A stretch of DNA of 54,327 nt, taken from Pseudomonadota bacterium. Lineage in GTDB: Bacteria > Desulfobacterota > WTBG01 > JAPLJA01. The stretch is taken from the NCBI GenBank assembly GCA_026388815.1, contig JAPLJA010000077.1, positions 1 through 54,327 on the forward strand, given 5' to 3'. The translations under genes and the position numbers were made by a program. Below, piece after piece: positions 3,278-18,935 of the stretch (the stretch's first letter is position 1; every line of letters begins with the position of its first letter). The notes under the pieces were generated by a model that saw only the letters and a program-made list of their open reading frames with translations, did not search any database and had not been told where the DNA came from.

Positions 3278-4990
3278 TCAGCCTTCCCAGTCAATATAGC
3301 CGAGCCGCTTAAGTTTCTTGAGATAGTCCTTCTCCTCCTCTGGGGTCGTGGTAGGGGATGAAGCCTGAGGAGGGGGAGCAGCGCTCGTGAATTCTACAGG
3401 GTTTGTTGCAAGGAAATCAGATGAGATGACCTCCTCCAATACCCTGCCGTCACTGTCCTGAGGTATTTTGATCCCCATGAGGTAGAGGATGGTTGGGAAG
3501 AGATCGAGAATCTTTGCCTGCTCTACGGTGATACCGGAACGTAAGGGAGTGCCTATGCCGAAGAGGATACCTTTCCTTTTATGGTGGCCGCTCATGCCCC
3601 AGGTCCTGGTGATGGACTGGTTCGAGGTAAAGCCGAAAATGCTCACCGCCAAATAACTGTTGTTCATGGGAAGGAAGGTGATGTCAGGTGCGGTTTCTAC
3701 CTGGTCTCCCGAATAAACCTCATCCCGGGTAAAGATCTCGCCTTTGATCTCCTGGCCGTTTTCAGGGTCTCTCAATGCTTTCAGCCTGGAGATGAGATCT
3801 GCTCGTAATGTTTCATATTCCTTACCGGGGTCTACCATACCATAAGGGAACTTACCCTTTACGTTGATGATGATCTGGCCGCTGCCAGCCACACCGACGT
3901 TACTGAATGCCCTGGTCCTGGACCAATCCACATCGTGGATGGTAAGGAGGGCGGCTTTCTGAGTGAAGAATTTATTGAACGTCACCAGGAGCGATTCATC
4001 ACTCTTATAACGTATGCCCATCCTGATGAGACGGGTATAGAGAGTGTGGTAGAGGGATTCGTGGGTAAGTCCATGCTGCCAGAGGAAATACTTCAGCCTG
4101 GTAGGTAAATCCCTTTTTAAAGCGATATAGCCTTCTTTCAGGAGCCAGACATTGAGATCAACAATTTTTTTCAGGGGACCAAATCCATGGTCGGAGATGA
4201 TGAAAAGGGGAGTGCTGTTCCCGCCCATCGCCTCCCAGAGTCTTCGGACTTCCTGATCGAACTGCCTGAAATAGTCAAGGATGTTTTCTCCATGTTTTTG
4301 AAAGAGCGCCTCTTCAAAGAGGGGGTGGGTTCGGTCAATGACATGCCAGAGGGAGTGGCAGATGGGATCGCTCTCCCAGATATGGAGCATGAGGAAATGG
4401 GGATCAAGCTTTTCCTTCAGGTAGTGGGCAACCTCAAACTTATACTTGAGCGCGTGCTTACACTCGTTGAGAAAGGTCTCAATGAGCGAATCAGTAACGC
4501 TGATGGCCAGACTGGGTGTCTTGAAGAAGAGGGGATACTTCCCAAACTTTCCTTCGATCTCCTGAACCAACTCTCCGGGATACATGAAGTCGTCTCTGCC
4601 AGAGGGGGTTAAGAAATCGCTGATCAGTGCCCCTCTCAGTTCCCGCGGAGGGTAGGTGGTAGGAACATTTAGAATAACACTCACCCCTCCCTGATCTCCG
4701 ATAATCTCCCAGATTGCCCGGTCTTTTCGGGTGTAAGAACTGATGGGGTGGGGCTTGAAGTCCTTATCCCGGTAGAAGAAGTCATAGATCCCGTGCTTGC
4801 CGGGATTCTTTCCGGTGATGAAGGAGTTCCAGGCAGGGGCAGTGACCGGGGGAACAACAGATTCGAGTTCCCCGCTTATCCCTTTGTCCATCGTGCCCTT
4901 CAGGAAGGGTAACTCACCCTGCTCAATCCAGGGCTTGAGGAGCTCGAAACTCCCGCCATCCAGGCCAATCACCAGGATCTTACTCTTCAT
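3278..4990 (-). CDS. alkaline-phosphatase-superfamily (type I) phosphodiesterase/phosphotransferase
   Basis: A 570-residue enzyme of the nucleotide pyrophosphatase/phosphodiesterase branch. Visible motifs: VIGLDGGSFELLKPW with metal ligand Asp11; VTAPAWNSFITGKNPGKHGI with likely nucleophile Thr50; ESDPICHSLWH around 207-216; ISDHGFGPL with Asp267 and His268; and SGHHKRKGILFG, which supplies the last metal-binding His. There is no clear signal peptide, so it is probably cytoplasmic. The C-terminal tail LKKLKRLGYIDWEG resembles the tail of the paralogue at 40524-42140. The start codon overlaps the upstream acyltransferase stop as ATGA. The family cleaves or transfers phosphate esters; in a lipid cluster the substrate may be a phospho-lipid or phospho-sugar (inference). 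The paralogue cut by the left window edge has the same N-terminal motifs. Confidence 0.87.
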   Translation of the reverse strand: MKSKILVIGLDGGSFELLKPWIEQGELPFLKGTMDKGISGELESVVPPVTAPAWNSFITGKNPGKHGIYDFFYRDKDFKPHPISSYTRKDRAIWEIIGDQGGVSVILNVPTTYPPRELRGALISDFLTPSGRDDFMYPGELVQEIEGKFGKYPLFFKTPSLAISVTDSLIETFLNECKHALKYKFEVAHYLKEKLDPHFLMLHIWESDPICHSLWHVIDRTHPLFEEALFQKHGENILDYFRQFDQEVRRLWEAMGGNSTPLFIISDHGFGPLKKIVDLNVWLLKEGYIALKRDLPTRLKYFLWQHGLTHESLYHTLYTRLIRMGIRYKSDESLLVTFNKFFTQKAALLTIHDVDWSRTRAFSNVGVAGSGQIIINVKGKFPYGMVDPGKEYETLRADLISRLKALRDPENGQEIKGEIFTRDEVYSGDQVETAPDITFLPMNNSYLAVSIFGFTSNQSITRTWGMSGHHKRKGILFGIGTPLRSGITVEQAKILDLFPTILYLMGIKIPQDSDGRVLEEVISSDFLATNPVEFTSAAPPPQASSPTTTPEEEKDYLKKLKRLGYIDWEG

Positions 4991-5643
4991 GGTTTACCTT
5001 TCAGGGCACAAATCTCATCCCGTATCCTCCGGGTGCATTCCAAGAGAAGGGCATCGTCCAGTTTTTTCTTCTCTCCCGGCAGAGCAACAAAAAAGGGTTT
5101 TCCAATTCTGATCTCTATGGTGCCAGTCAGATTCGGGTACTTTGCCCAGCGGGGGCAGGCATCATAGGCACCACGTACGTAGGAAGGGCAGACCGGCGCA
5201 CCTGATTTCAGGGCCAGCCAGGCGGTACTCGTTTTAAATTCCTGCAGCCTCCCGTCCCAGCTCATCTCGCCCTCAGGGGCAAAAGCCACTGGTTCGCCTT
5301 CCTTGAGGTACCGGAGTGCCATAAGAAAGGATGACATGGAAAGCCCCTTTGCCTTAGAGACCGCTATCCCTCCCATCCGCATGAATAATTTTGCCTTTAA
5401 AGGACTCGATATCACCGCATCGGCTACAATGAGGTGGATATCCGGCCTCCTCCTGCGCCAGGTAGAGGTTACAAAGATATCCAGAGCAGATGTATGGTTA
5501 CAGATCAGGATGAGTGGCCCCTGCGCAGGTATATTTTCATCACCTTCAATCCTGAGCTGGTAAGACAATTTTCCCAGGCTTAAGATGAGATGAGCAAAAA
5601 ACCTTCTTACTGCTTTCTCCATACGTCCTCTTCTTTGATCCAC
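4987..5643 (-). CDS. PlsC-like acyltransferase (second copy)
   Basis: Second member of the duplicated cassette, 218 residues, the same length as the copy at 346-1002. NHTSALDIF gives the HX4D catalytic motif near residue 50 and FAPEGEMSWDGRLQEF gives the divergent EGTRS-like block. SYQLRIEGDENIPAQGPLIL is typical of the strand before HX4D. The gene start lies 37 bases inside the end of the epimerase gene upstream; an internal ATG at 5622 is possible, but alignment with the first copy favours 5643. Its stop overlaps the following phosphodiesterase start (ATGA). It probably transfers an acyl chain from ACP to a polar acceptor at the membrane. Having two diverged copies suggests two acylation steps (inference). 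Confidence 0.85.
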   Translation of the reverse strand: MDQRRGRMEKAVRRFFAHLILSLGKLSYQLRIEGDENIPAQGPLILICNHTSALDIFVTSTWRRRRPDIHLIVADAVISSPLKAKLFMRMGGIAVSKAKGLSMSSFLMALRYLKEGEPVAFAPEGEMSWDGRLQEFKTSTAWLALKSGAPVCPSYVRGAYDACPRWAKYPNLTGTIEIRIGKPFFVALPGEKKKLDDALLLECTRRIRDEICALKGKP

Positions 5644-6605
5644 GCTTCCATCCTTTTTATCCCCTCTTTAAATGTTATCTTCGGCTGGTAGCCCAGCTCT
5701 GTCCGGGCGCGGCTTAAATTCACCTCGAGATCATGGGTTAACAGATAAAGGCCATAGAGTGTGAACAAGGGTGGGTCTTCTCGCCTTGTTAACCGGGCCT
5801 GTATCCCCATCAGGAAGACAACGAGCAAGGCTAAGGAAAATGGAACAGGGACCTTTGGCGGCGGAAGCTGAAACAGTCTTGCTAAGGCAGAGAAATATTC
5901 TTTCGCCGTTATTTTTTCTCCATCCGTTATGTGGTAGACCCTGCCTGATTTTCCCGATTTGCCGGCGAGGATGAGTCCATCAACTACATTTGAACAGTAG
6001 GAGAGAGTGAGATGGTTCTTGCCCCCGTCTATCAGAAATAGTCTTTTATTTTTCAAATGACTCACAAGACGTGGAAGTGTTTTTGTATCTCTTGGTCCCC
6101 AGATTAAGCCGGGGCGCACAATAGTGACCGGTAACCCTTTAAGCTGGGCGTATTCAAGGGCGATCATCTCTCCCTTTCTTTTTGTCTCGGTGTAGAGATC
6201 CAAAACTTTTCGAGAATAAGGAAATGTTTCATCGATGGGCTGAGGAGACTTATGTACTGCTAAAACGGTGAGGGAGCTGGTATGGACCACCTTACATCCG
6301 TTCTTGAGCGCTACCTCAAGGAGATTCTTCGTCCCCGCTACATTTGCTTCATAAAATGTTTCTTCCCCCCCCCACTCATCAACCATCCCGGCACAATGGT
6401 AGATGATTTCAACACCTTGTGCGGCTGAAAAGAGTGATGCTGGGTCACGCAAGTCACCGGAGCAGAGTTCCACTCCCAATTCCTCGAGCCGCTGTGCCTT
6501 GGTCCTGTCCCTGACCAGGACCCGAACTTCTTCGCCCTGTTTGACCAGGGTCTCTGTAAGGTGTCCCCCCAGGAAGCCAGTTGCACCGGTTACCAGCACT
6601 TTCAT
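5607..6605 (-). CDS. NAD(P)-dependent epimerase / 3-beta-HSD-like extended SDR
   Basis: A 332-residue extended short-chain dehydrogenase. The N-terminal VTGATGFLGGHL is the nucleotide-binding GxxGxxG loop, LCSGDLRDPASL and HCAGMVDEWG follow as expected, the catalytic Tyr/Lys pair lies in YTETKRKGE, and IVRPGLIWGPRD is the family substrate-loop motif. A hydrophobic segment (PFSLALLVVFLMGI) near residue 260 resembles 3-beta-hydroxysteroid dehydrogenase and OleD-like members that act on lipids. It has a good ribosome site (AAGGAAGG) before the ATG. It sits 12 bases after the ketosynthase gene, so it is probably a reductase or epimerase acting on the lipid made by the cluster, or a nucleotide-sugar enzyme for its head group. 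The sequence alone does not decide between these. Confidence 0.82.
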   Translation of the reverse strand: MKVLVTGATGFLGGHLTETLVKQGEEVRVLVRDRTKAQRLEELGVELCSGDLRDPASLFSAAQGVEIIYHCAGMVDEWGGEETFYEANVAGTKNLLEVALKNGCKVVHTSSLTVLAVHKSPQPIDETFPYSRKVLDLYTETKRKGEMIALEYAQLKGLPVTIVRPGLIWGPRDTKTLPRLVSHLKNKRLFLIDGGKNHLTLSYCSNVVDGLILAGKSGKSGRVYHITDGEKITAKEYFSALARLFQLPPPKVPVPFSLALLVVFLMGIQARLTRREDPPLFTLYGLYLLTHDLEVNLSRARTELGYQPKITFKEGIKRMEAWIKEEDVWRKQ

Positions 6606-6617
6606 TGTAGACCTTCC

Positions 6618-7922
6618 TTAATTTCTCCCTGGTGTTCTCTTAACGATCAGGGTGGAATTCTGGCCACCAAAGCCGAAGGAATTGGAGAGGGCGATCTCTA
6701 TCTCTTTTTCCCGGGAGTTATTGGGGATGTAGTCGAGGTCACAGGCCGGGTCAGGGACCTCATAGTTGATGGTGGGAGGAAGGAAGTGATGATACATGCC
6801 AGTAACGGTAGTGATCAATTCTACCGCGCCTGCAGCTCCCATAAGGTGCCCAAAGAGAGATTTGCTGCTGCTCACCGGGATATTCTTTGCGTGAGGACCA
6901 AAGACCGTTTTTATTGCCTTTGTCTCAATCCGGTCATTTTTCAGCGTGGCCGTACCGTGGGCGTTGATGTATTCTATCTCCTCCGGGGCAATCCCGGCAT
7001 CCCGGATAGCCCTCTCCATGGCGAGGATTGCGCCGGCACCCTCAGGGTGAGGGTCTGCCACACTATAGGCGTCTACTGATGTACCATAACCGATAACCTC
7101 CCCGTAAATCGTAGCCCCCCTTTGTATCGCATGATTCAATTCCTCAAGGACGAGGATGCCAGATCCTTCACCCAGTACAAAACCGTCCCTGGTTAGATCG
7201 AAAGGCCGTACCGCCCTTTCAGGCTCATCATTTCTCGTGCTCATGGTGCCAAGCAGACAGAAGCCTGCCACACCGAAAGGAAAGATCATGGAATCATAAC
7301 CACCGGTGATCATCAGATCGCAGTCACCTCTCCGGATCATCCGGTAAGCCTCGCCGATTGCCTGGGAAGAGGCGGCACAGGCGGAGATAACGGTATAACA
7401 GGGGCCTTTTATCCCGTATTGATGGGCAATCGTTATGGTTCCCAGATTTACAGGCACCCATTTGGCTTCATCCCCTCTCAGGATATTGTCGATCCATCGC
7501 GCTTTGAACTCATCCCAGTCGCAGTAATCTTCTGGTTTTATTTTCTCAAGCCCCCAGGCCATGATGGGGTTATTGTCAGAGATAATGGGGTGAATTCCTG
7601 CCCCCAGGACAACCCCACATCGGGTTTTCCCTATCGCTTCCGTATCCACATCTGCATCATTCAATGCCAGTTTGCAGGCTGAGTGCGCGAGAAGAGTTCG
7701 CCGGTCATTGGTGAAGTTAAGGATTCCCATGCCGGATAACAGTTCATGGGGATTAAACCCCTTCACCTCTGCAGCGATCCGGGTCGGAAGGGCTGCAGCA
7801 TTGAAGAGGGTAATAGGACCAACCCCTGACTTTCCTGCTGACAGGTTCTTTTTGAACATTTCATTCCCGATTCCCAGGGGAGAAACAATCCCTAAACCGG
7901 TGATGGCTGCCTGTTTATTCAT
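6618..7922 (-). CDS. beta-ketoacyl-ACP synthase (FabF-like), catalytically intact
   Basis: A 434-residue condensing enzyme with a complete catalytic triad: Cys182 in VISACAASSQAIG, His322 in INAHGTATLKND and His359 in SSKSLFGHLMGAAGA, with the conserved Lys354. It performs decarboxylative Claisen condensation of malonyl-ACP with an acyl chain in the cytoplasm. The C-terminal PTINYEVPDPACDLDYIPN and NSFGFGGQNSTLI blocks are typical of KAS II. It overlaps the upstream dehydratase gene by 8 bases. It is one of four ketosynthase-fold genes in this operon and one of two with an intact active site (the other is at 16001-17320). It may extend the chain after the first dehydration rounds or act on a different chain length (inference). 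Confidence 0.93.
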   Translation of the reverse strand: MNKQAAITGLGIVSPLGIGNEMFKKNLSAGKSGVGPITLFNAAALPTRIAAEVKGFNPHELLSGMGILNFTNDRRTLLAHSACKLALNDADVDTEAIGKTRCGVVLGAGIHPIISDNNPIMAWGLEKIKPEDYCDWDEFKARWIDNILRGDEAKWVPVNLGTITIAHQYGIKGPCYTVISACAASSQAIGEAYRMIRRGDCDLMITGGYDSMIFPFGVAGFCLLGTMSTRNDEPERAVRPFDLTRDGFVLGEGSGILVLEELNHAIQRGATIYGEVIGYGTSVDAYSVADPHPEGAGAILAMERAIRDAGIAPEEIEYINAHGTATLKNDRIETKAIKTVFGPHAKNIPVSSSKSLFGHLMGAAGAVELITTVTGMYHHFLPPTINYEVPDPACDLDYIPNNSREKEIEIALSNSFGFGGQNSTLIVKRTPGRN

Positions 7923-8379
7923 CAGATGTCTCGGCCAAAAATTTTCCGCTGGAAAAGATATAGGCGCTCTTTATCTTCTCCCGGTGTGTCTTCGGGACCT
8001 CAAAGAGGGTATAGTAGATCCTCTCAACGCGGGCTACGGGTTCCCCTTTTACCAAGGCAGTACCCCGGATCCCTGCACCGTATTCGTTCATCTCTGTTAT
8101 TTCTACCTTCAGGTGCAGTTGATCGCCGGGGTAAACGAACTTAAAGAACCGTGCTTCGTCAATCATCACCATGATGGCGAGATAGCGATAGTGCGCAGTG
8201 GTGCTGATAGCCCATCCTCCCACCTGTGCGAGCGCCTCGATGATGAGTGGTTCAGGGAAGACCGGAAGGCGGGCGTAGTGATTGAGAAAAAACTCCTCGC
8301 CGCCAGAGATATTTTTTATCCCGACAGCCTCCTTCCCTTTTTCAAACTGCTCTATCCGGTCAAAGAAGAGAAATCTCAC
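7915..8379 (-). CDS. FabZ/FabA-like hotdog-fold 3-hydroxyacyl-ACP dehydratase
   Basis: A 154-residue single-hotdog protein starting at a GTG. The active-site helix region reads FFLNHYARLPVFPEPLIIEALAQ, abbreviated here as NHYARLPVFP and IIEALAQ; it keeps the catalytic His and the Glu of the FabZ HFPxxPxxPG...E pattern, but the Gly before the His is Asn and the MPG turn is changed to FPEP. The N-terminus MRFLFFDRIEQFEKGKEAV is the one shared by dehydratases linked to secondary lipid clusters. It probably dehydrates 3-hydroxyacyl-ACP to enoyl-ACP. The changed loop may alter chain preference or turn it into a thioesterase-like or non-dehydrating partner of the next hotdog protein at 8474-8941. 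It overlaps the ketosynthase downstream. Confidence 0.83.
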   Translation of the reverse strand: MRFLFFDRIEQFEKGKEAVGIKNISGGEEFFLNHYARLPVFPEPLIIEALAQVGGWAISTTAHYRYLAIMVMIDEARFFKFVYPGDQLHLKVEITEMNEYGAGIRGTALVKGEPVARVERIYYTLFEVPKTHREKIKSAYIFSSGKFLAETSDE

Positions 8380-8473: not shown

Positions 8474-8941
8474 TCAGGGCGAGAAGATTCCCCGTGGCTT
8501 CTCCCTGGTGAGGATAGAAAAGTGTTCTCTCGCCTCTGCCGGGTCTTCCAGCTTTTCAACCTCGATAAAGTTCATCCTCCCCGAGTCAAGAACGGTTTTT
8601 ACTCTCCCGTTAGCCTTCGTTTCGCCACGAAAAGTGACCCCTTCTTCATCCCAGGAGATGATCTGGACTTCAACGGTCAGTTGATCTCCCGGCTTTACCG
8701 GATCCTTGAATTTTACCTTCTCTATGCCGGCAATTGTACCCCTGACTTTGAAGTCCTTGGTGACGTAAATCAGCCATGAAGCGAGTTGAGAGATGGCTTC
8801 CACCTGAAGGACACCCGGCATGATGGGAAAACTGGGGAAGTGGTCAGCGAGAAAGTCCTCGCTCATCGTAACACTCTTGGTTCCTACTGCTGACTTCCCC
8901 TTTTCGTAGGAGAGGATGTGGTCAAGAAAGAGAAACCGCAT
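8474..8941 (-). CDS. FabZ-like 3-hydroxyacyl-ACP dehydratase
   Basis: A 155-residue hotdog protein with the canonical FabZ active site: ADHFPSFPIMPGVLQVEAIS carries the catalytic His and Glu. The start MRFLFLDHILSYEKGKSAV matches its neighbour at 7915-8379, so the two arose by duplication, but this copy keeps the standard HFPxxPxMPG loop. It dehydrates 3-hydroxyacyl-ACP during chain elongation. The ATG lies 6 bases after the AcpS stop, and 94 bases without a gene separate it from the second dehydratase. Because this copy is canonical, it is the better candidate for routine dehydration in the pathway (inference). Confidence 0.9.
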   Translation of the reverse strand: MRFLFLDHILSYEKGKSAVGTKSVTMSEDFLADHFPSFPIMPGVLQVEAISQLASWLIYVTKDFKVRGTIAGIEKVKFKDPVKPGDQLTVEVQIISWDEEGVTFRGETKANGRVKTVLDSGRMNFIEVEKLEDPAEAREHFSILTREKPRGIFSP

Positions 8942-8947
8942 GGTTGT

Positions 8948-9325
8948 TCATCCTCTTTCTGTTATGACCTGGGCGCATGCAACAGCATAATCCCGACAAT
9001 GGGAGAGAGAGACCAGTATCTTTTTAATCCTTCTTTCCTGAACGATTTCCTTAACCCGCCCATAGGTGTTCACCTCGGGTTTACCCCACCGGTCATTCAC
9101 AACTTCTACATCTGTCCAGCCAATGCGTCCGCTCCAGCCGGTTCCCAGTGCCTTCAGCACGCTCTCCTTTGCTGCAAAACGGGCTGCGAGGTGCTGGTAC
9201 TTGTTTCTCTTTTTTGTGCAGAACTCGATCTCGCGAGGTGTATACACCCGGGTGAGGAATTCTTTGTGCCGGAGAGAGAGCTCTTCAATCCTCTTTACTT
9301 CAGTAATGTCAATCCCGATACCCAT
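8948..9325 (-). CDS. acpS: holo-[acyl-carrier-protein] synthase
   Basis: A 125-residue AcpS-type phosphopantetheinyl transferase. GIGIDITEVKRIEEL at the N-terminus holds the metal-binding Asp, and ARFAAKESVLKALGTG is the second signature with the metal-binding Glu and Lys. It activates ACP by moving 4-phosphopantetheine from CoA to the ACP Ser. I chose the ATG at 9325 because it forms a TGATG overlap with the ACP stop; a TTG one codon upstream is also possible. Being coupled translationally to the ACP gene at 9325-9738, it most likely serves that unusual ACP. It may also be the only AcpS in the genome, which this window cannot show. Confidence 0.93.
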   Translation of the reverse strand: MGIGIDITEVKRIEELSLRHKEFLTRVYTPREIEFCTKKRNKYQHLAARFAAKESVLKALGTGWSGRIGWTDVEVVNDRWGKPEVNTYGRVKEIVQERRIKKILVSLSHCRDYAVACAQVITERG

Positions 9326-9738
9326 CAAGCCCCTTTCTTCTCTTTTTCAGCAAGACACTTTTGGGTCAGGTTGATAAAGGTCTGGACGGTAAAGAGGGTA
9401 GGAATGTCTTCTGCCCTGAAACCTTCAGGCATGCGGTCAGGATTAATCTCCGGCATTTCCTTGAGCAATCTCGCTATTCCCAGCGGGGTCAGCACCCCGT
9501 CTTTTAGCAGGTCCTCTTCCTTCACGCCCTCGCTGCCAAGGACATTGCTCTGAATTCCGCCTCGAGGTATTTGAATCCCGAAGGCTTTCTCCAGCCGAAA
9601 GACGATATCGAGTAAATCAAGGGACTCTGCTCCCAGATCGTCAAAGAGCATAGCATCCGGCACAACCTCTTCTGCATCAATGCCCAGGGCCTGAGCAATG
9701 CACATTCTCACCTTTTCTGTGATCTCTTTCTCATCCAT
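9325..9738 (-). CDS. acyl carrier protein with an extended insertion
   Basis: A 137-residue ACP, against about 80 for FabD/AcpP-type ACPs. LGAESLDLLDIVFRLEKAFG holds the phosphopantetheine-accepting Ser39 (ESLD instead of the usual DSLD). After helix II there is an insertion of about 50 residues rich in turns (IPRGGIQSN through MPEGFRAED) before the terminal helix (LFTVQTFINLTQKCL). ACPs of this insertion type are known beside ketosynthase/dehydratase clusters in several phyla, so this one is probably dedicated to the cluster. The ATG at 9738 has AAAGGAG 8 bases upstream; a GTG 9 bases earlier sits too close to that site. The downstream acpS overlaps its stop. Confidence 0.9.
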   Translation of the reverse strand: MDEKEITEKVRMCIAQALGIDAEEVVPDAMLFDDLGAESLDLLDIVFRLEKAFGIQIPRGGIQSNVLGSEGVKEEDLLKDGVLTPLGIARLLKEMPEINPDRMPEGFRAEDIPTLFTVQTFINLTQKCLAEKEKKGA

Positions 9739-9762
9739 AGATATCACTCCTTTGCATTAGCA

Positions 9763-11526
9763 TTAAGCGTGACCGCTATTCTTTTCTTTTGACACACTGA
9801 AGCCTTCATGGATAGCCTCTTTAAGACCGCGGGGTTCTTTTACATCGCCGATATACTCCACTTTCTTACCCATGCTCTCGAGTGCTTTCCATCCATATAT
9901 TCCATTGCTCACCTTGCGGATAGCTACCACAAGAGTATCGTAACTATCAACGGTACGCAATTCCTTTTTCTGTTCTATTACCACAAATCCCCTGCCCACC
10001 TCAACTACCTTTGACCTGAGCAGGACCTCTACCTGAGGGTTCTCCATGAGGCGGTGGGACAGGTGAAATCTCACGGAGGGGGGGAGTCCATATCCAATAA
10101 GCCTTTTCATTTCAATGAGGGTAACCTTTTTCCCTTTCTGGGCAAGAAAGTCAGCGAGCTCAGCCCCTTCTGGTCCACCGCCGATAATGGCAACGTTCTC
10201 CCCGACGGACTCAGGATTCAGAAAGGCCTGTTCCACGGTCAGGCAATCCCCATTTTCAACCCCTGTAATTTCCGGGAGGGTATGATGAGCGCCAGTGGCA
10301 ACAACGATCCTGTCTGGTTTAAACCCGGCTAAAAACTTTGGAGTTACCTCATCCTTTAGACGGATACTCACGGTACTCTTCCTGACTTCCTTGAGAAGAT
10401 ACTCCAGGAACTCCCTTAAGGGATACTTCCCAGGAGCAAGACATGCTATCCTTAACTGGCCTCCGAGGGTTTCTTCTCTTTCAATCAGGGTTACCTCGCT
10501 CCCTCTTTTTGACAGTTCGAGGGCGGCCTGCATCCCGGCAGGCCCTCCCCCGATTACCAGAACTTTTTCACCGTTTTTGTGAACGGTATGTTCTTCCCCT
10601 TCCTTCCCCAGGTACGGGTTAACAACACACGCCATCTTCCCGTAAAAGATGCTTTCAATACACCGGTTACAGGATATGCAGGGCCGGATCTCTTCTGTCT
10701 TCCCCTGTGAGGTTTTTAAGGGAAGATAGGGATCAGCAATTAATGCCCTGCCCATGCAGACCAGGTCTGCCTTCCCTTCCTGTATAATCCCTTCAGCCAT
10801 TTCAGGCTTCCGTATCCTCCCTACAGCCATAACGGGGATAGGGACAACTTCTTTTATCCCCTGGGCGAGGTGAACAAAACACCCTTCTTCCAGATAGTAA
10901 GAGGGCATATTGAGGTGAGCCGATTCATAATTACAGGCAGAAACATTCAGCGCCGATGCTCCGGCATCAGTTAGGATGTTTGCTATCGTTTTACTCTCCT
11001 CGAGGTCAAGCCCTCCCTCAACATACTCATCAGCACTGATTCTGCAGATGATCGGGATATGATCGCCAATCGTGCGCTTGATCTCCAGGATGATCTCTCG
11101 GGCAATACGCGTCCGGTTCCCCGTGCTCCCGCCGTACTGATCAGTGCGGATATTAGAATAGGGGGAAAGAAACTGACAGAGGAGGTACCCGTGTGCCATA
11201 TGGAGTTCAATGGCATCCACTCCAGCCTCAACACCCCTCTGAGCAGCTTCGGCAAAGGACCTCACGATGTTACCCGCGATATACGAGTCATCGTGAATGC
11301 AGAGCATCCCCTGGTTCACCCTTCCTTCAGGGTGGACAGCAGTATTTTCTATAATGATCAGTCCTACCCCCCCCTTTGCCCTCTCCTGATAGTATGAGAT
11401 CATCTGGTCGGTCACATAGCCATGTGAATTAGCCATATGTGTCTCCATAGCCGGGAGAACGAACCGATTCTTGAGCTTCAGAGTACCGAGTTGAAGGGGA
11501 GTAAAAAGGTTTTTAAACTCTATCAC
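9763..11526 (-). CDS. NADH:flavin oxidoreductase / 2,4-dienoyl-CoA-reductase-like enoate reductase
   Basis: A 587-residue flavoprotein of the FadH/BaiCD group. The N-terminal TIM barrel (old yellow enzyme; FTPLQLGTLKLKNRFVLPAM, HMAHGYLLCQFLSPYSN) binds FMN; next come four Cys for a [4Fe-4S] cluster (CISCNRCIESIFYGKMACVV, roughly residues 281-300); the C-terminal half is an FAD/NAD(P) domain (VLVIGGGPAGMQAALEL, and a second GGGPEGAELADFLA). It reduces activated C=C bonds with NAD(P)H. The start is a GTG at 11526, 5 bases after the fabG stop. The cluster has no FabI, FabK or FabL homologue in this window, so this enzyme is the likely enoyl reducer, either in each cycle or for a selected double bond (inference). 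Confidence 0.88.
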   Translation of the reverse strand: MIEFKNLFTPLQLGTLKLKNRFVLPAMETHMANSHGYVTDQMISYYQERAKGGVGLIIIENTAVHPEGRVNQGMLCIHDDSYIAGNIVRSFAEAAQRGVEAGVDAIELHMAHGYLLCQFLSPYSNIRTDQYGGSTGNRTRIAREIILEIKRTIGDHIPIICRISADEYVEGGLDLEESKTIANILTDAGASALNVSACNYESAHLNMPSYYLEEGCFVHLAQGIKEVVPIPVMAVGRIRKPEMAEGIIQEGKADLVCMGRALIADPYLPLKTSQGKTEEIRPCISCNRCIESIFYGKMACVVNPYLGKEGEEHTVHKNGEKVLVIGGGPAGMQAALELSKRGSEVTLIEREETLGGQLRIACLAPGKYPLREFLEYLLKEVRKSTVSIRLKDEVTPKFLAGFKPDRIVVATGAHHTLPEITGVENGDCLTVEQAFLNPESVGENVAIIGGGPEGAELADFLAQKGKKVTLIEMKRLIGYGLPPSVRFHLSHRLMENPQVEVLLRSKVVEVGRGFVVIEQKKELRTVDSYDTLVVAIRKVSNGIYGWKALESMGKKVEYIGDVKEPRGLKEAIHEGFSVSKEKNSGHA

Positions 11527-11531
11527 AGTCT

Positions 11532-12275
11532 TTACGCCCTGAATCCTCCGTCCACGTGGACAATCTCTCCGGTAATGTAGGAGGACTCATCTGAGGCCAT
11601 AAAGACGACTACGTGGGCTATTTCCTCTGCTTTTCCCATCCGCCTCAGGGCAATAGAATCTACGATGACATCCCGTGCCCTGCGGATTACCTGACTGCTC
11701 ATATCAGTCTCTATTACTCCCGGCGCAATGGCGTTTACGGTGATCCCCTTCGGGGCAAGTTCCATGGCGACTGCCCTGGTAAAAGCGTTAATTCCACCTT
11801 TTGAGGCAGCATAATTAGACTGTCCCCTCCCCCCCCTTTCTCCGGCAACCGACGATATATTGATTATCCTTCCGCTCTTCTGGGTGATCATATACTTGGC
11901 CACTGCTTTCGTGCAATTGAAAACACCGCCCAGGTTGGTATTGATCACCAGATCCCAGTCTTTCTTTGCCATGGATAGCAGGAGTTCATCCCGGGTGACG
12001 CCGGCATTGTTTACCAGGACATCAATCCTCTCCCACTTCCGGTATATTTCATCCACCATCCTCTCGACTTCCTCAAGGTTGGCAACATCTGTCTGGATAC
12101 TGAATATCCTCTCCCCCCTGCTTTCTCCCTCTCGTACCAGGCTTTCTGCCTCTTCTTTACTCTTCAGGAAATTGCAATAAACGATAGCCCCTTCCCGTGC
12201 AAGGTGTGTGACTATGGACTTCCCTAAGCCTCTCGTCCCGCCGGTAACCACTATGACCTTGTTCTTAAGCCTCAT
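11532..12275 (-). CDS. fabG: 3-oxoacyl-ACP reductase (FabG-like SDR)
   Basis: A 247-residue classical short-chain dehydrogenase. VTGGTRGLGKSIV is the NADP-binding TGxxxGxG loop, NNAGVTRDELL follows at the expected place, the catalytic Ser lies in INISSVAGERGGRGQSN and the Tyr/Lys pair in NYAASKGG. ITVNAIAPGVIETDM and the C-terminal YITGEIVHVDGG are standard. It reduces 3-oxoacyl-ACP to 3-hydroxyacyl-ACP. Length and motifs match FabG closely. It lies between the acyl-ACP-reductase-like gene and the enoate reductase, so in this operon it supplies the ketoreduction step of the elongation cycle. Whether it also serves primary fatty-acid synthesis cannot be told from the window. Confidence 0.93.
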   Translation of the reverse strand: MRLKNKVIVVTGGTRGLGKSIVTHLAREGAIVYCNFLKSKEEAESLVREGESRGERIFSIQTDVANLEEVERMVDEIYRKWERIDVLVNNAGVTRDELLLSMAKKDWDLVINTNLGGVFNCTKAVAKYMITQKSGRIINISSVAGERGGRGQSNYAASKGGINAFTRAVAMELAPKGITVNAIAPGVIETDMSSQVIRRARDVIVDSIALRRMGKAEEIAHVVVFMASDESSYITGEIVHVDGGFRA

Positions 12276-12282
12276 GTTGTCC

Positions 12283-13407
12283 TCACGCTACCCGCCGGTC
12301 CCTCTTGAATGCCTCTCTGGTCATCTGAAGGTTTGCTTCATCTACAGGTCTTCGGAAGCTTCGCAGGGTATTGGCGATAAATCCATGGATTTCGCTCTTT
12401 CTTCCTATCTCTTCAATCTTCTCCAGCGGCAATTCCCTGCCCAGGGAGAAGGATTCAGATGCACCTTCCAGGGTGAGAATCATGGTCTCAGCCAGACACG
12501 CAGGTACATCATTGGGCTCCCAGTTCGAAAATTTAGCCCGATGGGGAGTGCTCCCAGGCAGGGTAACAACTCCTCCGTCAAGAATCAAGACATCTTTTCG
12601 TTTTTCCCTGTTTTCAATCACATCCCGCGGCTGGGCTATATCCAGAACAATGCTCCCGCTCAGGAGGATATCCGGGTCAATGATCTGACCTGTTGACGTG
12701 GCAGTAACAATGATTCTTCCCCGGGTAAGGGAATGAGAAAGGTCTTCTGTGATTTCAATCCCCCCGGTGCATGACCCCTTCAATTCCGACACGAAGCGGT
12801 CCAGGAACGGAGTTTTTCTCCTGCTCACCAGGATGAGATTGAAGCCCCGTCTGGCTAAGATACGGGCGATGGCTAAGGAAATACTGCCCGGGAATCCTAC
12901 GATCACGATTTTCTCGGAAGAGAAATCGAGGTCAATCTCCTTCTGTAGCCTTGCAAAGGTAGCCAGAGTTGAATAAACGGTAAGGCAATTGCCGGAGGTG
13001 ACCGGCACGGTTATCTTCTCTGCAATTTCTTTGCCTCGCGAGCCAACAGCCCCTGTTAATCCTCCCAGTCCGATGACCCGAGAACCCCAGTGCTGGGCCT
13101 GGTGGCAGGCAAGCTCCACAAGATTCACGGCGGTAGATTGAAGATTGAGAATCTGATCCGGCATGAGGAAGATACAGTATACCCTTCCTTTACATGATAT
13201 GTTCTGATGGGAGATGATAGGGGGAAAGGTGTAGATTGATTTCACTGCTTTCCTGTTAAGACATTGAGATTTTATGAAATTTTCCGTGCCGAAGGGGAGG
13301 ATTGGCAGGGCATGGCGGAATACCAGTTGTCTCAACTCAGATATACTGCGAGGGTGGACGATGAAGCCGAATCGTAGTTCGTCATGTGTACGGGTGAATT
13401 CAAGCAT
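12283..13407 (-). CDS. long-chain acyl-ACP reductase (aldehyde-forming, cyanobacterial AAR-like)
   Basis: The 374-residue protein resembles cyanobacterial AAR over most of its length. Shared blocks are VIGLGGLTGAVGSRGKEIAE, then VPVTSGNCLTVYSTLAT, a Rossmann strand IVIVGFPGSISLAIARIL, ILDGGVVTLPGS, and ACLAETMILTLEG followed by LEKIEEIGRKSEIHGF. Cys304 in ACLAETM lines up with the Cys of AAR (Cys294 in Synechococcus, as I recall) that carries the acyl group. AAR reduces acyl-ACP with NADPH to a fatty aldehyde. I start at the ATG at 13407, 14 bases beyond the ketosynthase stop; reading farther upstream would overlap that gene and adds nothing conserved. Its N-terminal 60 residues differ from AAR. 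A related glutamyl-tRNA-reductase-fold enzyme with another acyl substrate is the alternative. Confidence 0.8.
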   Translation of the reverse strand: MLEFTRTHDELRFGFIVHPRSISELRQLVFRHALPILPFGTENFIKSQCLNRKAVKSIYTFPPIISHQNISCKGRVYCIFLMPDQILNLQSTAVNLVELACHQAQHWGSRVIGLGGLTGAVGSRGKEIAEKITVPVTSGNCLTVYSTLATFARLQKEIDLDFSSEKIVIVGFPGSISLAIARILARRGFNLILVSRRKTPFLDRFVSELKGSCTGGIEITEDLSHSLTRGRIIVTATSTGQIIDPDILLSGSIVLDIAQPRDVIENREKRKDVLILDGGVVTLPGSTPHRAKFSNWEPNDVPACLAETMILTLEGASESFSLGRELPLEKIEEIGRKSEIHGFIANTLRSFRRPVDEANLQMTREAFKRDRRVA

Positions 13408-13421
13408 ACGTTCGGGGCTTC

Positions 13422-14729
13422 TCAGGGGCGCTGAATAATGAGCGCAGTGGTCTGCCCGGACAATCCCTGGTTGACGGAGAGAGCGATGTTTACTTCTTTC
13501 GCTCGGGCCTGATTGGGCACATAGTCCAGGTCGCACTCAGGATCAACGGTTTGGTAGTTTATGGTGGGAGGGATCATGCCGTGCTCCATGCTGAGTATGC
13601 AGTAGATCAGTTCTACAGCACCGGAAGCTGCACCCAGATGGCCGGTCATTGATTTTGTAGAGCTCAGGGGAATACGGCGGGCATCATCACCCAGCACTGC
13701 TTTGTACGCTTTGGTTTCTGCCCGGTCACTCTCTACCGTAGCGATACCGTCGGCATTAATATAGTCTATGTCATGGGCATGGATACCGGCCTCTTGCAAT
13801 GCGCTTTCCACTGCTGTGATGATCCCGCTCCCGTGAGGACATGGTTGATAGAGGTGGTAAGCGGTGGTGGTATTCCGATACCCTGTCACCTCTGCATAGA
13901 TCCGGGCATTCCTCTTGACAGCATGTGAGTATTCTTCAATGATCACCATCCCGGCACCTTCGCCCAGGAGAAACCCATCCCTCTTGAGGTCAAAGGGCGA
14001 AAATATACCCTGAGCACCTCCGCGGGTAGAGAGAAGGTTGAGGCTGTGATAGCTGAAGATGGTACCGGGGAAGATGAGCGTGTCATATCCCCCTGCCATC
14101 ATGACTTCTGCATCTCCCCGCTGAATGCTTCTCGCTGCGTCACCGATCGCCTGAGAACCTCCCGTAAAGGGAGATATGAGGTTATTATTTTCTCCTTGGA
14201 TTTTGTAGAGAGAGGAGATGTAAAAAAAGGCATTATTCGGCAAGGTCTTAATGAGAAAGAGGGGATAAATTCCACCTTCCAAGAAATCTCCAAAACGGTG
14301 GACATCGAATTTTTCATGATTCTCATTCCACGATTTCTTTAAGATTTCCACGGAATCTTCGAATCCAGGCCCATCTTCAAATCCGCCGTTGCCTGAGCCT
14401 ATAACAGCGCCAAAGCGAGGAGGATCGACCATGCCGATCGTAAGGCCCGCGTCGGTGAATGCCATCTTGGCTGCTGCGAGGGCAAGGTGAACATTTCTGA
14501 ACGTCAGTTTTAATATCCTCCGGTCGATGCCGTACTGCGAGAGGTCAAAATTCCTGACCTCTCCAGCGCTTTTAACAGGAAAAGGGGCAGGATCAAAAAG
14601 GGTAATGTTACTCAGACCGGATTTTCCAGCCTTCAGGGCTTCCCAGTTCTCTTCTTTTCCAAAACCCAGAGGGGATACCACTCCCACACCAGTAATGACT
14701 GCTCTTTTCGTTTTCTTTTCTTTCATCAT
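13422..14729 (-). CDS. ketosynthase-like protein without catalytic Cys (chain-length-factor-like)
   Basis: A 435-residue KAS II-fold protein. Where active enzymes have the nucleophile, the sequence is NLISPFTGGSQAIG, so the Cys is Phe188. The first catalytic His is Asp327 (INADGIATVESD), while the second His (His364, STKSMTGHLGAASGA) and Lys remain. GEGAGMVIIEEYSHA and the C-terminal TINYQTVDPECDLDYVPN are conserved, so the fold is intact and the gene is not simply decaying. In type II polyketide systems a Cys-less KS beta subunit (chain length factor) pairs with an active KS and sets chain length. By analogy this protein probably forms a heterodimer with the active KS at 16001-17320 or 6618-7922. 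It starts 9 bases after the preceding gene. Confidence 0.88.
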   Translation of the reverse strand: MMKEKKTKRAVITGVGVVSPLGFGKEENWEALKAGKSGLSNITLFDPAPFPVKSAGEVRNFDLSQYGIDRRILKLTFRNVHLALAAAKMAFTDAGLTIGMVDPPRFGAVIGSGNGGFEDGPGFEDSVEILKKSWNENHEKFDVHRFGDFLEGGIYPLFLIKTLPNNAFFYISSLYKIQGENNNLISPFTGGSQAIGDAARSIQRGDAEVMMAGGYDTLIFPGTIFSYHSLNLLSTRGGAQGIFSPFDLKRDGFLLGEGAGMVIIEEYSHAVKRNARIYAEVTGYRNTTTAYHLYQPCPHGSGIITAVESALQEAGIHAHDIDYINADGIATVESDRAETKAYKAVLGDDARRIPLSSTKSMTGHLGAASGAVELIYCILSMEHGMIPPTINYQTVDPECDLDYVPNQARAKEVNIALSVNQGLSGQTTALIIQRP

Positions 14730-14738
14730 CTCCGCTTC

Positions 14739-16016
14739 TTACGAAAACTTTTTTATGATTAAGCTCGTATAATCCCCCTCCGGACCAAAGGTGTTGGACA
14801 GAACGGTATCAATCTTTTTCTCTCTCGCCTCATTGGGCACATAATCCAGATCACACCGTGGATCAGGGTAGTCATAGTTTATGGTAGGGGGGATGATATT
14901 CTCATTGATGCTCATGATGGAAAAAATCGCTTCAACAGGCCCTGATGCACAGAGTAAGTGTCCCGTCATAGACTTATTTGAGCTTACCGGTACCGTATAA
15001 GCGTACTCTCCGAATACCTTTTTTATGGCCTCAGTTTCAGCCCAATCGGATATCTCACAGGATCGTCCATCGGCATTGATATAATCAACCCCTTCGGGAG
15101 CAATACCCGCTTGTTTCAGGGCCCCCCGCATGGCAATTTCAGCACCGTTCATATCACGTGCAAGCGATTCTCTGCAGGGCATCTCTCCCAGTCCATAGAC
15201 ACAGGAGGTGTAGCCTGTAATTTCAGCGTAAATCTTTGCACCTCTCTTCCGTGCATGGTTCAACTCCTCTATAACCAGGAGAGCAGCCCCTTCACCCAGA
15301 ATCACACCATCTCTCTTGAGGTCAAAGGGGCGGCAGATTGCTTCAGGATGGTCGGACGAGGGAGAGAGAAGATCTTTCAAAAAAAAGGACGTTAAGCAAA
15401 TGGGGTTGATAGTATCACATCCGCCGGCAAGCAAAGCAGGGATTTCCCCCTCACGCACCTTTTTCATTGCTTCTCCAATGGCCTGAGCACCGGCCGATGC
15501 TATAGAACTGAAAATAACATTTGGTCCCTGGATATGGTAGAGAATTGAGACATGACACAAAGCCATGTTTGGTAAGAGGGTAAAAGGCCAGATGGGATTG
15601 AGTGATTGTAAGCCTTCTCTTCCAAACCTCTGATGATCTACGGTCATATCCTCACTCAGAGATGCATAGATAGCGGTTACAGCATCTTCAATCGCATACT
15701 GAGTACCGCCGATCCCGAGAACAAGTCCGGTTTCACTTGGGTTGATGCCCGAATCAGCAAGCGCCATGTTGGCTGCAGCAGCGACTAATTGACTCCCTCT
15801 GTTCATTAATTTGATGGATTTACGTTTTGGAATGAATTGTGCGGGATCGAAGTCTTTGATCTCGCCTGCAATGGAATAGGGAAGGTTTTCAGAGATGGAA
15901 GAGCGTACTCTTCGTATTCCCGATTTCCCTTGAATCAGGGATTGCCAACTTTCTTTCAGATTGTTTCCTAAGGGGGAGATCAGGCCAAGCCCCGTAACCA
16001 CTACCCTTCTATCCAT
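14739..16016 (-). CDS. ketosynthase-like protein without catalytic Cys (second chain-length-factor-like copy)
   Basis: A 425-residue KAS II-fold protein. The nucleophile position is Ala173 (FSSIASAGAQAIG) and the first His is Asp316 (INADGRSCEISD); the second His is kept (His353 in NKSMTGHLLCASG). The same His-to-Asp change as in the gene downstream, but a different replacement of the Cys, suggests a common non-condensing ancestor followed by divergence. It overlaps the active ketosynthase at 16001-17320 by 16 bases, the arrangement expected of a KS alpha/KS beta pair. It probably forms the chain-length-setting partner of that enzyme. Alternatively it could act as a decarboxylase-like priming subunit, as proposed for KSQ domains, although those have Gln at this position. 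Confidence 0.88.
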   Translation of the reverse strand: MDRRVVVTGLGLISPLGNNLKESWQSLIQGKSGIRRVRSSISENLPYSIAGEIKDFDPAQFIPKRKSIKLMNRGSQLVAAAANMALADSGINPSETGLVLGIGGTQYAIEDAVTAIYASLSEDMTVDHQRFGREGLQSLNPIWPFTLLPNMALCHVSILYHIQGPNVIFSSIASAGAQAIGEAMKKVREGEIPALLAGGCDTINPICLTSFFLKDLLSPSSDHPEAICRPFDLKRDGVILGEGAALLVIEELNHARKRGAKIYAEITGYTSCVYGLGEMPCRESLARDMNGAEIAMRGALKQAGIAPEGVDYINADGRSCEISDWAETEAIKKVFGEYAYTVPVSSNKSMTGHLLCASGPVEAIFSIMSINENIIPPTINYDYPDPRCDLDYVPNEAREKKIDTVLSNTFGPEGDYTSLIIKKFS

Positions 16017-17320
16017 CTCTTTTTGTTATTCCTATCTTCGATAAATTTCTCGACGATCAGGCTGACATTCTGACCGCCAAAGGCAAAAGAGTTGGATAGA
16101 ACTGCATTTACCTCTTTTCCCCTGGAAATGTTGGGTACATAATCCAGGTCACACTCCGGATCAGGGTGGGTCAGATTGACCGTAGGAGGGATGATGTTGT
16201 GCTGGATGGTGAGGATGCTGATGATCAACTCCACTGCTGAAGAACTGGCAATCAGATGGCCGAGCATGGATTTATTAGAACTGATGGGAATCTCGTAAGC
16301 TCTTCTCCCGAATACTTTTTTTACAGCTCGGGTTTCACTCCGATCGTTTGATAAGGTAGAGGTACCATGGGCGTTGATGTAATCGATATCATCAGGAGAG
16401 AGGTGTGCATCCTTCAGTGCTGCCATCATACAAATATCCGCCCCGCTCCCATCAGGAGTAGAGTCAGTTATTCGGTAGGCATTCGAGGAACTTCCATATC
16501 CCGTTAATTCAGCCAGAATGTTGGCTTTCCGCGCTCGAGCATGAGACAATTCTTCGAGGACGAGGATACCTGATCCTTCACCCAACACAAAACCGTCTCT
16601 CTTTCCGTCAAAGGGTCTGCTGGCTTTGTGCGGTTCGTCGTTGTTCCTCGACAAGGCACCCAGCAATCCGAAACCTGCGATAGCGAACTCGCTGATCATT
16701 GACTCACAGCCGCCGGCAATCATGATATCCGCTTCTCCAGATTCAATGGTACGAAGAGCCCTTCCAATCGCATGCCCACTGGATGCGCAGGCAGTAGCTG
16801 AGGTGTTCGTAGGCCCCCGGGCATTGAGGATAAGAGAGAGGAGAAACGTAGTAATACTGGCTGTCCTGCGTATAGGCCAGATCTTTCCCAGGGGTTTAGA
16901 ACTGTCAAAGTAATAATTACTCCCTGAAGCCAGGGCTTGATAGGTGAGAAACTCGCCATAGACCTCATCAATTTGATCGAGATGTACATGCTCTTCATTG
17001 GTCCCGAGCGAAATACCAAATCGGGTTGGATTGATAGTCTTGAGATTTAATTTGGCATCCTCGATAGCCATCCGGGTTGCTTCAAAACAGAATTTGGTAG
17101 CGCGACTCATAAAATCAACGAGGTGAGGATCATATCCAAATCCATTTAAATGAAAATTCTTAACTTCTCCGGCTATCCGGACAGGGAAGGTAGAGGCATC
17201 AAAGAGAGTAATGCGATTTACCCCTGACCTGCCCTCTGTCAAACCTTCCCAGGTACTCTTAACATTTAATCCCAAGGGGGTAACTGTCCCCAGGCCAGTT
17301 ACGACAACTCTTTTTCCCAA
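16001..17320 (-). CDS. beta-ketoacyl-ACP synthase (FabF-like), catalytically intact, first gene of the operon
   Basis: A 439-residue condensing enzyme with all catalytic residues: Cys178 in SATACASSGHAIG, His318 in INAHGTSTLSND, His355 in SNKSMLGHLIASS, and Lys350. NSFAFGGQNVSLIVE closes the fold. The start is a TTG at 17320 with AGGAG nine bases upstream, and the product begins MGKRVVVTGLGTVTPLG as KAS II enzymes do. It is the promoter-proximal gene of the minus-strand cluster, about 107 bases downstream of a predicted transcription start. The following Cys-less ketosynthase overlaps it by 16 bases, so the two are translated in step and probably form a heterodimer. It condenses malonyl-ACP with the growing chain. 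Confidence 0.93.
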   Translation of the reverse strand: MGKRVVVTGLGTVTPLGLNVKSTWEGLTEGRSGVNRITLFDASTFPVRIAGEVKNFHLNGFGYDPHLVDFMSRATKFCFEATRMAIEDAKLNLKTINPTRFGISLGTNEEHVHLDQIDEVYGEFLTYQALASGSNYYFDSSKPLGKIWPIRRTASITTFLLSLILNARGPTNTSATACASSGHAIGRALRTIESGEADIMIAGGCESMISEFAIAGFGLLGALSRNNDEPHKASRPFDGKRDGFVLGEGSGILVLEELSHARARKANILAELTGYGSSSNAYRITDSTPDGSGADICMMAALKDAHLSPDDIDYINAHGTSTLSNDRSETRAVKKVFGRRAYEIPISSNKSMLGHLIASSSAVELIISILTIQHNIIPPTVNLTHPDPECDLDYVPNISRGKEVNAVLSNSFAFGGQNVSLIVEKFIEDRNNKKRWIEG

Positions 17321-17462: not shown

Positions 17463-17484
17463 GGATAGATGTATATGGTATTTT
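17456..17484 (+). promoter_or_regulatory. possible sigma-70 promoter of the response-regulator gene
   Basis: TTGTCA (17456-17461), 17 bases, then TATTTT (17479-17484). The match is weaker than that of the opposite-strand promoter with which it shares the TTGTCAA core. The regulator's ATG is at 17556. Confidence 0.35.
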
Positions 17485-17555
17485 TTATCATCTTTTTTTT
17501 AATTAGTATTCATCCAATTCATGAGAGAGTGTATACATCACAAGGTGAGGAGCAT

Positions 17556-18935
17556 ATGGATTACCATAAGGTCTTAGTAGTGGATGATGATAAAGACAGT
17601 CGTGATACCTTGGTGGAACTCCTTAAGGGAGAAGATTTTGAGGTGTGCGGGGTCGATAATGGAGAAGCGGCTTTACAGCTCTATAAAGAAAAAGATTTTG
17701 GTATCGTTTTAACTGATCTTAAGATGCCCAAGATCGATGGCCTCCAATTATTGGAACAGGTTAAGAGTATCAGTCCACAGTCCATAGTAATTGTATTCAC
17801 CGGTTATGCCTCTATCGAGACTGCAGTAAAGGCGATGAAACTCGGAGCATACGATTATATTGTTAAACCCTTTATATTTGAAGAAATAAAGATCATATTG
17901 CAAAGGGCTATTGAGTACCAGAAATTACAGAATGAAAATATTTTTCTGAAGCAAAACCTCAAGGCTAAATACCGTTTTCAAAATATCATCGGTGACAGTA
18001 AAGAGATGGAGGAGATCTTCCATTTTGTTGAAAAAATAGCCAATACCGATAGTACTATCCTGATCTTTGGTGAGAGCGGCACAGGGAAAGAACTCGTTGC
18101 AAGGGCTATTCATTTCAATAGTGACCGGAGAAATAAACCTCTTATATCGGTAAATTGTGGAGCTATTCCTGAAGACCTGCTGGAAAGTGAGATGTTCGGC
18201 CATGAAAAAGGTGCTTTTACCGGTGCAATAAAGACCCGTATCGGTAGATTTGAAATGGCAAATGGAGGGACCATCTTTTTAGACGAAATTTCAGATATGA
18301 GCCCGAGTCTGCAGGCTAAACTGTTACGGGTGCTTCAGGAACACGAGTTTGAAAGAGTCGGTGGAATAAAAACAATTAAGGTAGATATACGGGTGATTAC
18401 TGCTACCAACCAGGATCTGGAGAAGGCAGTTGAACAGGGTAGGTTCAGAGAGGATCTTTTTTACCGCCTCAATGTGATCCCGATAAAACTTCCACCCCTG
18501 CGTGAGAGGAAGTCTGATATCCCACTCCTGGTAAGTCATTTTATTAGCCGGTTCAATCAAGAAAAGAACTGTACGGTAAAGGGCCTTTCAAGGGAATGTC
18601 TGGAGTATTTCATGAAGTATCCTTGGCCAGGGAACGTGAGGGAATTGGAGAATATGCTCGAGCGTTTAGTAATTCTGAAAGGAGATGGAACCATTGAAGT
18701 TTCAGATCTTCCTGAAAAGGTGGTTGATGCCGAGGTTGAACCGTTCCCAATCATTATCCCGGATTCAGGCATATCTTTTGACATGGCTGTGAGTGAGTTT
18801 GAGAAAAGGCTCATTCTCCAGGCCCTGGAAAAGACCAATTGGGTAAAGAATCGTGCTGCAAAATTATTACACTTAAACCGTACGACCCTCGTAGAAAAGA
18901 TGAAAAGGATTAACCTTAATAAAGAATCAGATTAA
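17556..18935 (+). CDS. sigma-54-dependent response regulator (NtrC/FlrC-type)
   Basis: A 459-residue protein in three domains: receiver (residues 1-120; phospho-acceptor Asp54 in TDLKMPKIDG, Lys in YIVKPF), AAA+ sigma-54 activator (Walker A GESGTGKE near residue 172, GAFTGA loop near 219, GTIFLDEI Walker B) and a Fis-type helix-turn-helix at the end (NRAAKLLHLNRTTLVEKMKR). It activates sigma-54 RNA polymerase when phosphorylated. I start at the ATG at 17556, where the MDYHKVLVVDDD sequence begins behind AGGTGAGG; 29 upstream codons would add a hydrophobic stretch with no family match. No histidine kinase is adjacent. A sigma-54 promoter lies just downstream, before flhG, so it probably drives flhG-fliA, like FleR/FlrC in polar flagellar cascades (inference). 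Confidence 0.92.
   Translation: MDYHKVLVVDDDKDSRDTLVELLKGEDFEVCGVDNGEAALQLYKEKDFGIVLTDLKMPKIDGLQLLEQVKSISPQSIVIVFTGYASIETAVKAMKLGAYDYIVKPFIFEEIKIILQRAIEYQKLQNENIFLKQNLKAKYRFQNIIGDSKEMEEIFHFVEKIANTDSTILIFGESGTGKELVARAIHFNSDRRNKPLISVNCGAIPEDLLESEMFGHEKGAFTGAIKTRIGRFEMANGGTIFLDEISDMSPSLQAKLLRVLQEHEFERVGGIKTIKVDIRVITATNQDLEKAVEQGRFREDLFYRLNVIPIKLPPLRERKSDIPLLVSHFISRFNQEKNCTVKGLSRECLEYFMKYPWPGNVRELENMLERLVILKGDGTIEVSDLPEKVVDAEVEPFPIIIPDSGISFDMAVSEFEKRLILQALEKTNWVKNRAAKLLHLNRTTLVEKMKRINLNKESD

Follow-up and report, generated by a model that had tools for sequence, protein, structure and literature searches.

Gene organisation of the locus

The window, by which we mean the whole stretch of 54,327 nucleotides analysed here, is the entire contig C113 of the source genome, which is 98% complete. 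A run of 17 genes is located on its minus strand between positions 17320 and 346 (Table 1). Gaps between these genes are mostly −37 to +15 bases, with three wider ones of 31, 94 and 178 bases, and the reductase gene is separated from its neighbours by −16 to +15 bases. It starts with the ATG at 13407, ends with a stop codon at 12283–12285 and encodes 374 amino acids; an alternative GTG start at 13536 would run into the upstream gene. The source genome has a single copy of the reductase gene. The original prediction described this gene as an acyl-ACP reductase (AAR) of the cyanobacterial type situated among ketosynthases. The open reading frame is real, and the quoted AAR blocks GLGGLTGAVG, DGGVV and ACLAETMILTLEG are all present in its translation, with Cys304 inside ACLAETMILTLEG. 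Ketosynthase (KS) genes lie on its flanks, as was claimed.

Table 1. Genes of the operon and the divergent regulator, in the order of transcription from KS4
Feature	Position in the window	Strand	Remarks
KS4, catalytic ketosynthase (Cys-His-Lys-His), first gene of the operon	16001–17320	−	profile, active-site residues
KS3, CLF-like; active Cys replaced by Ala, His by Asp	14739–16016	−	in 8/8 reductase loci, absent from 2/2 reductase-less loci
KS2, CLF-like; Phe/Tyr at the Cys position in all loci	13422–14729	−	
Stand-alone PigE-type thioester reductase (AAR superfamily), 374 aa	12283–13407	−	Cys304, GFPGSI, Arg196, Arg324
FabG-type ketoreductase	11532–12275	−	
OYE/FadH/BaiCD-like flavin enoyl reductase	9763–11526	−	window locus only; ~53 aa short of family
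Cluster-specific ACP, long conserved C-terminal extension (FTVQTF)	9325–9747	−	
AcpS-type phosphopantetheinyl transferase	8948–9328	−	
FabZ-type dehydratase 2	8474–8941	−	
FabZ-type dehydratase 1	7915–8379	−	
KS1, catalytic ketosynthase (Cys-His-Lys-His)	6618–7922	−	
Extended SDR (HpnA/OleD-like), candidate aldehyde-to-alcohol reductase	5607–6605	−	also in G011, G012
PlsC-type acyltransferase 2	4987–5643	−	
Type I phosphodiesterase/nucleotide pyrophosphatase-like	3278–4990	−	42% relative in reductase-less cluster of G010
Protein without family match	2625–3269	−	
B12-binding radical SAM, TIGR04072 (lipid biosynthesis, ladderane type)	1034–2446	−	408 bits, cut-off 360
PlsC-type acyltransferase 1	346–1002	−	last gene before contig end
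Sigma-54 response regulator, divergent from the operon	17469–18935	+	

The operon may continue past the contig end at PlsC-type acyltransferase 1. In the OYE/BaiCD-like gene, which is absent from the other loci, about 53 residues of the barrel are missing compared with the family: residue 86 falls on position 139 of the profile. Degeneration, divergence or an assembly error may account for this. The spot of the sigma-54 response regulator is occupied by two-component regulators in several relatives. No sigma-54 promoter was found ahead of KS4 in the window. In relatives, good matches to the sigma-54 (−24/−12) consensus precede the operon, with 10–11 consensus letters at loci L009, L017 and L108; as background, 2000 pieces of 260 bases taken at random from the window reached 9 letters at most. 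Further along the contig, positions 32437–54005 form an exopolysaccharide-type region with polymerase/flippase-like and glycosyltransferase genes, in which there are two more phosphodiesterase-family genes (40524–42140 and 51581–52768).

Family, fold and active-site residues of the reductase

The protein belongs to the AAR superfamily, as had been predicted (PigE N-terminal profile, E 1e-85; AAR profile, E 1.6e-19). The best curated profile is that of PigE from prodigiosin synthesis (NF053554) with 288.7 bits, a match that covers only positions 1–360 of 837 and stays below the full-length cut-off of 850. A sequence search of the PDB likewise returned PigE with E 2e-54 and S. elongatus AAR with E 7e-14. 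The PigE reductase domain aligns with the window protein over its full length, placing Cys304 at the conserved Cys296 of PigE (numbering as in PMC8341465), and the window protein stops after this domain, i.e. there is no fused aminotransferase.

The cyanobacterial label has to be given up. The protein is not a cyanobacterial AAR, because it misses the cut-off of the corresponding model TIGR04058 (70.4 against 449.7 bits), the thioester reductase domain of PigE is closest to it, and Tyr247 of the cyanobacterial enzyme is replaced by Gln259. Similarity to cyanobacterial AAR (TIGR04058; 6jzy) is found in the fold and the acyl-carrying Cys, and in the alignment arginines stand at two of the three NADPH-site Arg positions, but identity is 24–29% and the window enzyme has no ADO partner. 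A search against hemA and shikimate dehydrogenase families had been suggested together with the prediction. Matches to these families are weak and restricted to the Rossmann part (22 bits against a cut-off of 209.55 for the glutamyl-tRNA reductase profile), and identity as a glutamyl-tRNA reductase or shikimate dehydrogenase was rejected. The profile searches thus agree with the superfamily part of the prediction and replace the cyanobacterial AAR by a PigE-type enzyme.

An AF2 model built from seven sequences was too weak (pLDDT 63), and an 18-sequence alignment was used instead (pLDDT 90, pTM 0.91). The seven top PDB folds for this model are all AAR chains with TMq 0.70–0.74 and TMt 0.75–0.81 (6jzy and 6jzz: TMq 0.74, TMt 0.80–0.81), so that the fold matches AAR. 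Sequence alignment puts Cys304 at the position of AAR Cys294, of the PigE Cys and of the Cys in every full-length close relative. In AAR it is Cys294 that carries the acyl group, while Arg189 and Arg314 bind the 2'-phosphate of NADPH (PMC7089970). Arg196 and Arg324 of the window protein fall at the latter two positions in the alignment, and the Arg193 position is taken by Pro200. The GFPGSI nucleotide loop is present.

Among characterised proteins PigE is the most similar, with 33–35% identity across the whole reductase, a common Cys and a common nucleotide loop. However, PigE carries a fused class III aminotransferase and acts in pyrrole synthesis, while the window reductase stands alone in a KS/CLF operon. 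TamH of the tambjamine pathway is also an AAR-superfamily reductase acting on ACP-bound chains with a putative catalytic Cys (PMC9594044), but there the reductase is the C-terminal domain of a fusion, and a TamH-type sequence from Haematobacter is only ~26% identical. Next to the AAR chains in the fold ranking are chains of the carmabin TAD domain (PDB 9e50). This domain has an AAR-like fold (TMq up to 0.75), its Cys2238 binds dephospho-CoA and NAD(H) is bound as well; it differs in being a member of the carmabin pathway with ~15% identity. We found no paper on the carmabin TAD domain and none on stand-alone members of the PigE-type reductase clade in the literature searched.

Phylogeny and distribution

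In a maximum likelihood tree of 25 sequences the window protein groups with reductases of Ca. Anammoxibacter and Thermodesulfobacteriota (support 100/99), and the PigE reductase domains are the neighbours of this clade (98/97). Outside the group formed by the window clade and PigE lie AAR (a 271-aa fragment), the TamH-type sequence and further distant reductases; several of these outside sequences are long-branched and their own branching order is unsure. Close relatives are 44–51% identical to the window reductase, the closest being a Ca. Anammoxibacter protein. In a pattern scan of 84,980 species (one genome each), the only close relatives of full length came from two MAGs of Ca. Anammoxibacter and from five other bacterial MAGs, Thermodesulfobacteriota among them, although diverged members may escape a scan that demands short exact motifs. 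Six of the 17 genomes in the window's class carry the reductase. Among 395 genomes drawn from the phylum, close copies were confined to this class, and the reductases that the survey gave beyond it were all distant (E 1e-26 to 1e-45).

Conserved KS/CLF gene set

Close relatives of the reductase are always accompanied by two catalytic KS, two CLF-like KS without Cys, FabG, FabZ and the distinctive ACP, which was found at every locus. The order KS4-KS3-KS2-reductase-FabG-ACP is the same in six Thermodesulfobacteriota genomes, the window alone having the OYE gene inserted between FabG and ACP. In the two Anammoxibacter genomes the set is complete but rearranged, with the reductase at the end. Across the window and seven related loci, KS1 and KS4 have kept Cys-His-Lys-His throughout; the Cys position is Phe or Tyr in KS2 and Ala, Asp or Thr in KS3, and in both of these KS the first His is replaced by Asp or Glu. 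Going by these residues, the pattern is that of catalytic KS with chain-length-factor-like (CLF-like) partners. Discrete KS, CLF, FabG, FabZ and ACP are also found in aryl polyene and other KS/CLF type II systems, but the window operon has two KS, two CLF-like genes and a release reductase.

Two genomes of the window's class, G010 and G012, retain KS4, KS2 and other cluster genes, and at the syntenic place both KS3 and the reductase are missing. The reductase and the second CLF (KS3) therefore co-occur in 8/8 loci and are both absent in 2/2. All six reductase-bearing genomes of the class are among the eight that have KS2; the chance of this is ~0.002 assuming independent genomes, though relatives are not independent. 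The core cluster can do without the reductase, since G010 and G012 keep the KS2 cluster and have none, and clusters with and without it offer a ready comparison. The reductase-less variants (L108 and L109) have features of their own: the cluster of G010 has 2-oxoacid-dehydrogenase-type acyltransferases and two glycosyltransferase-like genes in addition to its relative of the window phosphodiesterase.

Relation to ladderane biosynthesis

Anammox ladderane candidate loci share with the window operon a B12 radical SAM gene, AcpS and divergent FabF paralogues without Cys (PMC2649909). It could be argued that the reductase belongs to a pathway for ladderanes (or anaerobic polyunsaturated fatty acids) and provides the ladderane aldehydes or alcohols from which anammox bacteria make their ether-linked lipids. 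The radical SAM protein of the operon is indeed over the TIGR04072 cut-off, Phe is found at the Cys position of a CLF-like KS as in Kuste2805 (PMC2649909), and Ca. Anammoxibacter has the nearest relative of the reductase. However, the reductase occurs in only 2 of 62 Brocadiales genomes, both of them Anammoxibacter, KS2 is 51–52% identical in Anammoxibacter and at most 44% in 27 other Brocadiales tested, and neither Anammoxibacter genome has a TIGR04072 protein above the cut-off. No phytoene-desaturase-like gene was recognised among the scanned operon proteins. We consider a ladderane function unlikely.

The operon resembles ladderane loci in style and can nevertheless be told apart from them, because other anammox bacteria lack the reductase, the close KS2 orthologue is limited to Anammoxibacter, and Anammoxibacter has no over-cut-off TIGR04072 protein. 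No desaturase-like genes were found among the operon proteins scanned. The reductase is not a general ladderane gene, being missing from 60/62 Brocadiales. A link between TIGR04072 and the reductase was not borne out: over-cut-off matches are found in G000, G011 and G016, which all bear the reductase, but the copies of G011 and G016 are on contigs without cluster genes.

Proposed role in reductive chain release

We propose that the stand-alone PigE-type reductase is most likely the release enzyme of a rare type II lipid system, of fatty-acid/polyketide kind, with two KS and two CLF-like proteins. Among the functions originally suggested was the release of a specialised lipid in the setting of the adjoining KS, and the syntenic gene set in eight genomes ties the reductase to these KS. 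On the computed side stand the fold, the catalytic Cys, the family position, the synteny and the missing ADO; catalysis, substrate, product, chain length, unsaturation and the fate of the alcohol we infer. Chain extension would take place on the cluster's own ACP and involve both catalytic KS, the CLF-like proteins paired with them, FabG and FabZ. By analogy, the chain would then be transferred from the ACP to Cys304, and NAD(P)H in the middle of the domain would reduce the Cys304 thioester to a free aldehyde. NADPH is more likely than NADH because of Arg196 and Arg324. Reductase domains of PigE and TamH reduce NAC- or ACP-bound thioesters to aldehydes (PMC8341465, PMC9594044); it is important to note that purified PigE alone gave no reduction and activity was seen only in lysate (PMC8341465).

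Neither an aminotransferase in the operon nor an ADO in the genome would be at hand to take over the aldehyde. The lack of ADO, originally noted for the window, extends to the whole genome (98% complete), where PF11266 had no match while the S. elongatus positive control scored, and a cyanobacterial alkane route was rejected. An ADO-free hydrocarbon route by anaerobic decarbonylation, or an aldehyde that is a mere overflow product, seems very improbable to us. Desulfotalea does make C31 polyunsaturated hydrocarbons, and its cluster has some features of anammox FASII clusters (PMC2649909), but outside the window's class the phylum survey gave only distant reductases, so nothing yet connects the Desulfotalea hydrocarbon with this enzyme, and no oxygen-independent aldehyde decarbonylase was recognised here.

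The aldehyde could also be passed to an aminotransferase encoded elsewhere in the genome and become a long-chain amine, as happens within PigE and TamH proteins. The closest characterised relatives and nearly all annotated plasmid-borne matches are fused to class III aminotransferases, which speaks for such a product. Its probability is nevertheless low in our view: no aminotransferase is present among the scanned window proteins or was recognised in the neighbourhoods of relatives, and the genes downstream in relatives, variable as they are, belong to acyltransferase, sulfotransferase or SDR types.

In the release scheme that we favour, the aldehyde is probably a substrate of the clustered extended SDR, and the alcohol so formed would then be built into a lipid by PlsC acyltransferases in the window or by sulfotransferases in two relatives (L019 and L021). 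Extended SDRs adjoin the cluster in the window and in G005, G011 and G012; the SDR varies among loci, and conservation therefore does not extend to the alcohol step. These SDRs, taken with the downstream PlsC proteins of the window, the sulfotransferases or, in L015, an unassigned protein with an HxxxDG-like motif, suggest that an alcohol is formed and later capped. The reductase is a specific enzyme that could set the end group of a lipid as aldehyde or alcohol, not acid, in uncultured Thermodesulfobacteriota and one anammox genus. Tentatively, these bacteria may have a distinct anaerobic lipid pathway in common. Two KS/CLF pairs, working with a specialised ACP, would build a polyunsaturated chain; its reductive release would yield an aldehyde, and reduction to the alcohol followed by acylation or sulfation would give an undescribed class of membrane lipid. 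We regard this wider proposal as possible rather than probable for the one anammox genus and the one Thermodesulfobacteriota class.

Other gene arrangements

The sulfotransferase-family genes are located 3' of the cluster in one Anammoxibacter and one Thermodesulfobacteriota genome (L021, 11120–14810; L019, 19954–21065), and those of Anammoxibacter are preceded by another B12 radical SAM gene. Proteins of ~700 aa whose C-terminal half contains a complete reductase are encoded in G400 (three copies) and G154 (L069, L075, L076 and L073). In L069, L073 and L075 the N-terminal half also shows weak similarity to the reductase, and the Cys is replaced by Ser in L075 and by Ala in L073. An Omnitrophota contig (L022, 8455–11008) has two tandem reductases, the first one with an extra N-terminal domain of ~160 aa, adjoining an acyltransferase-like gene and a gene for an 835-aa SDR-containing protein.
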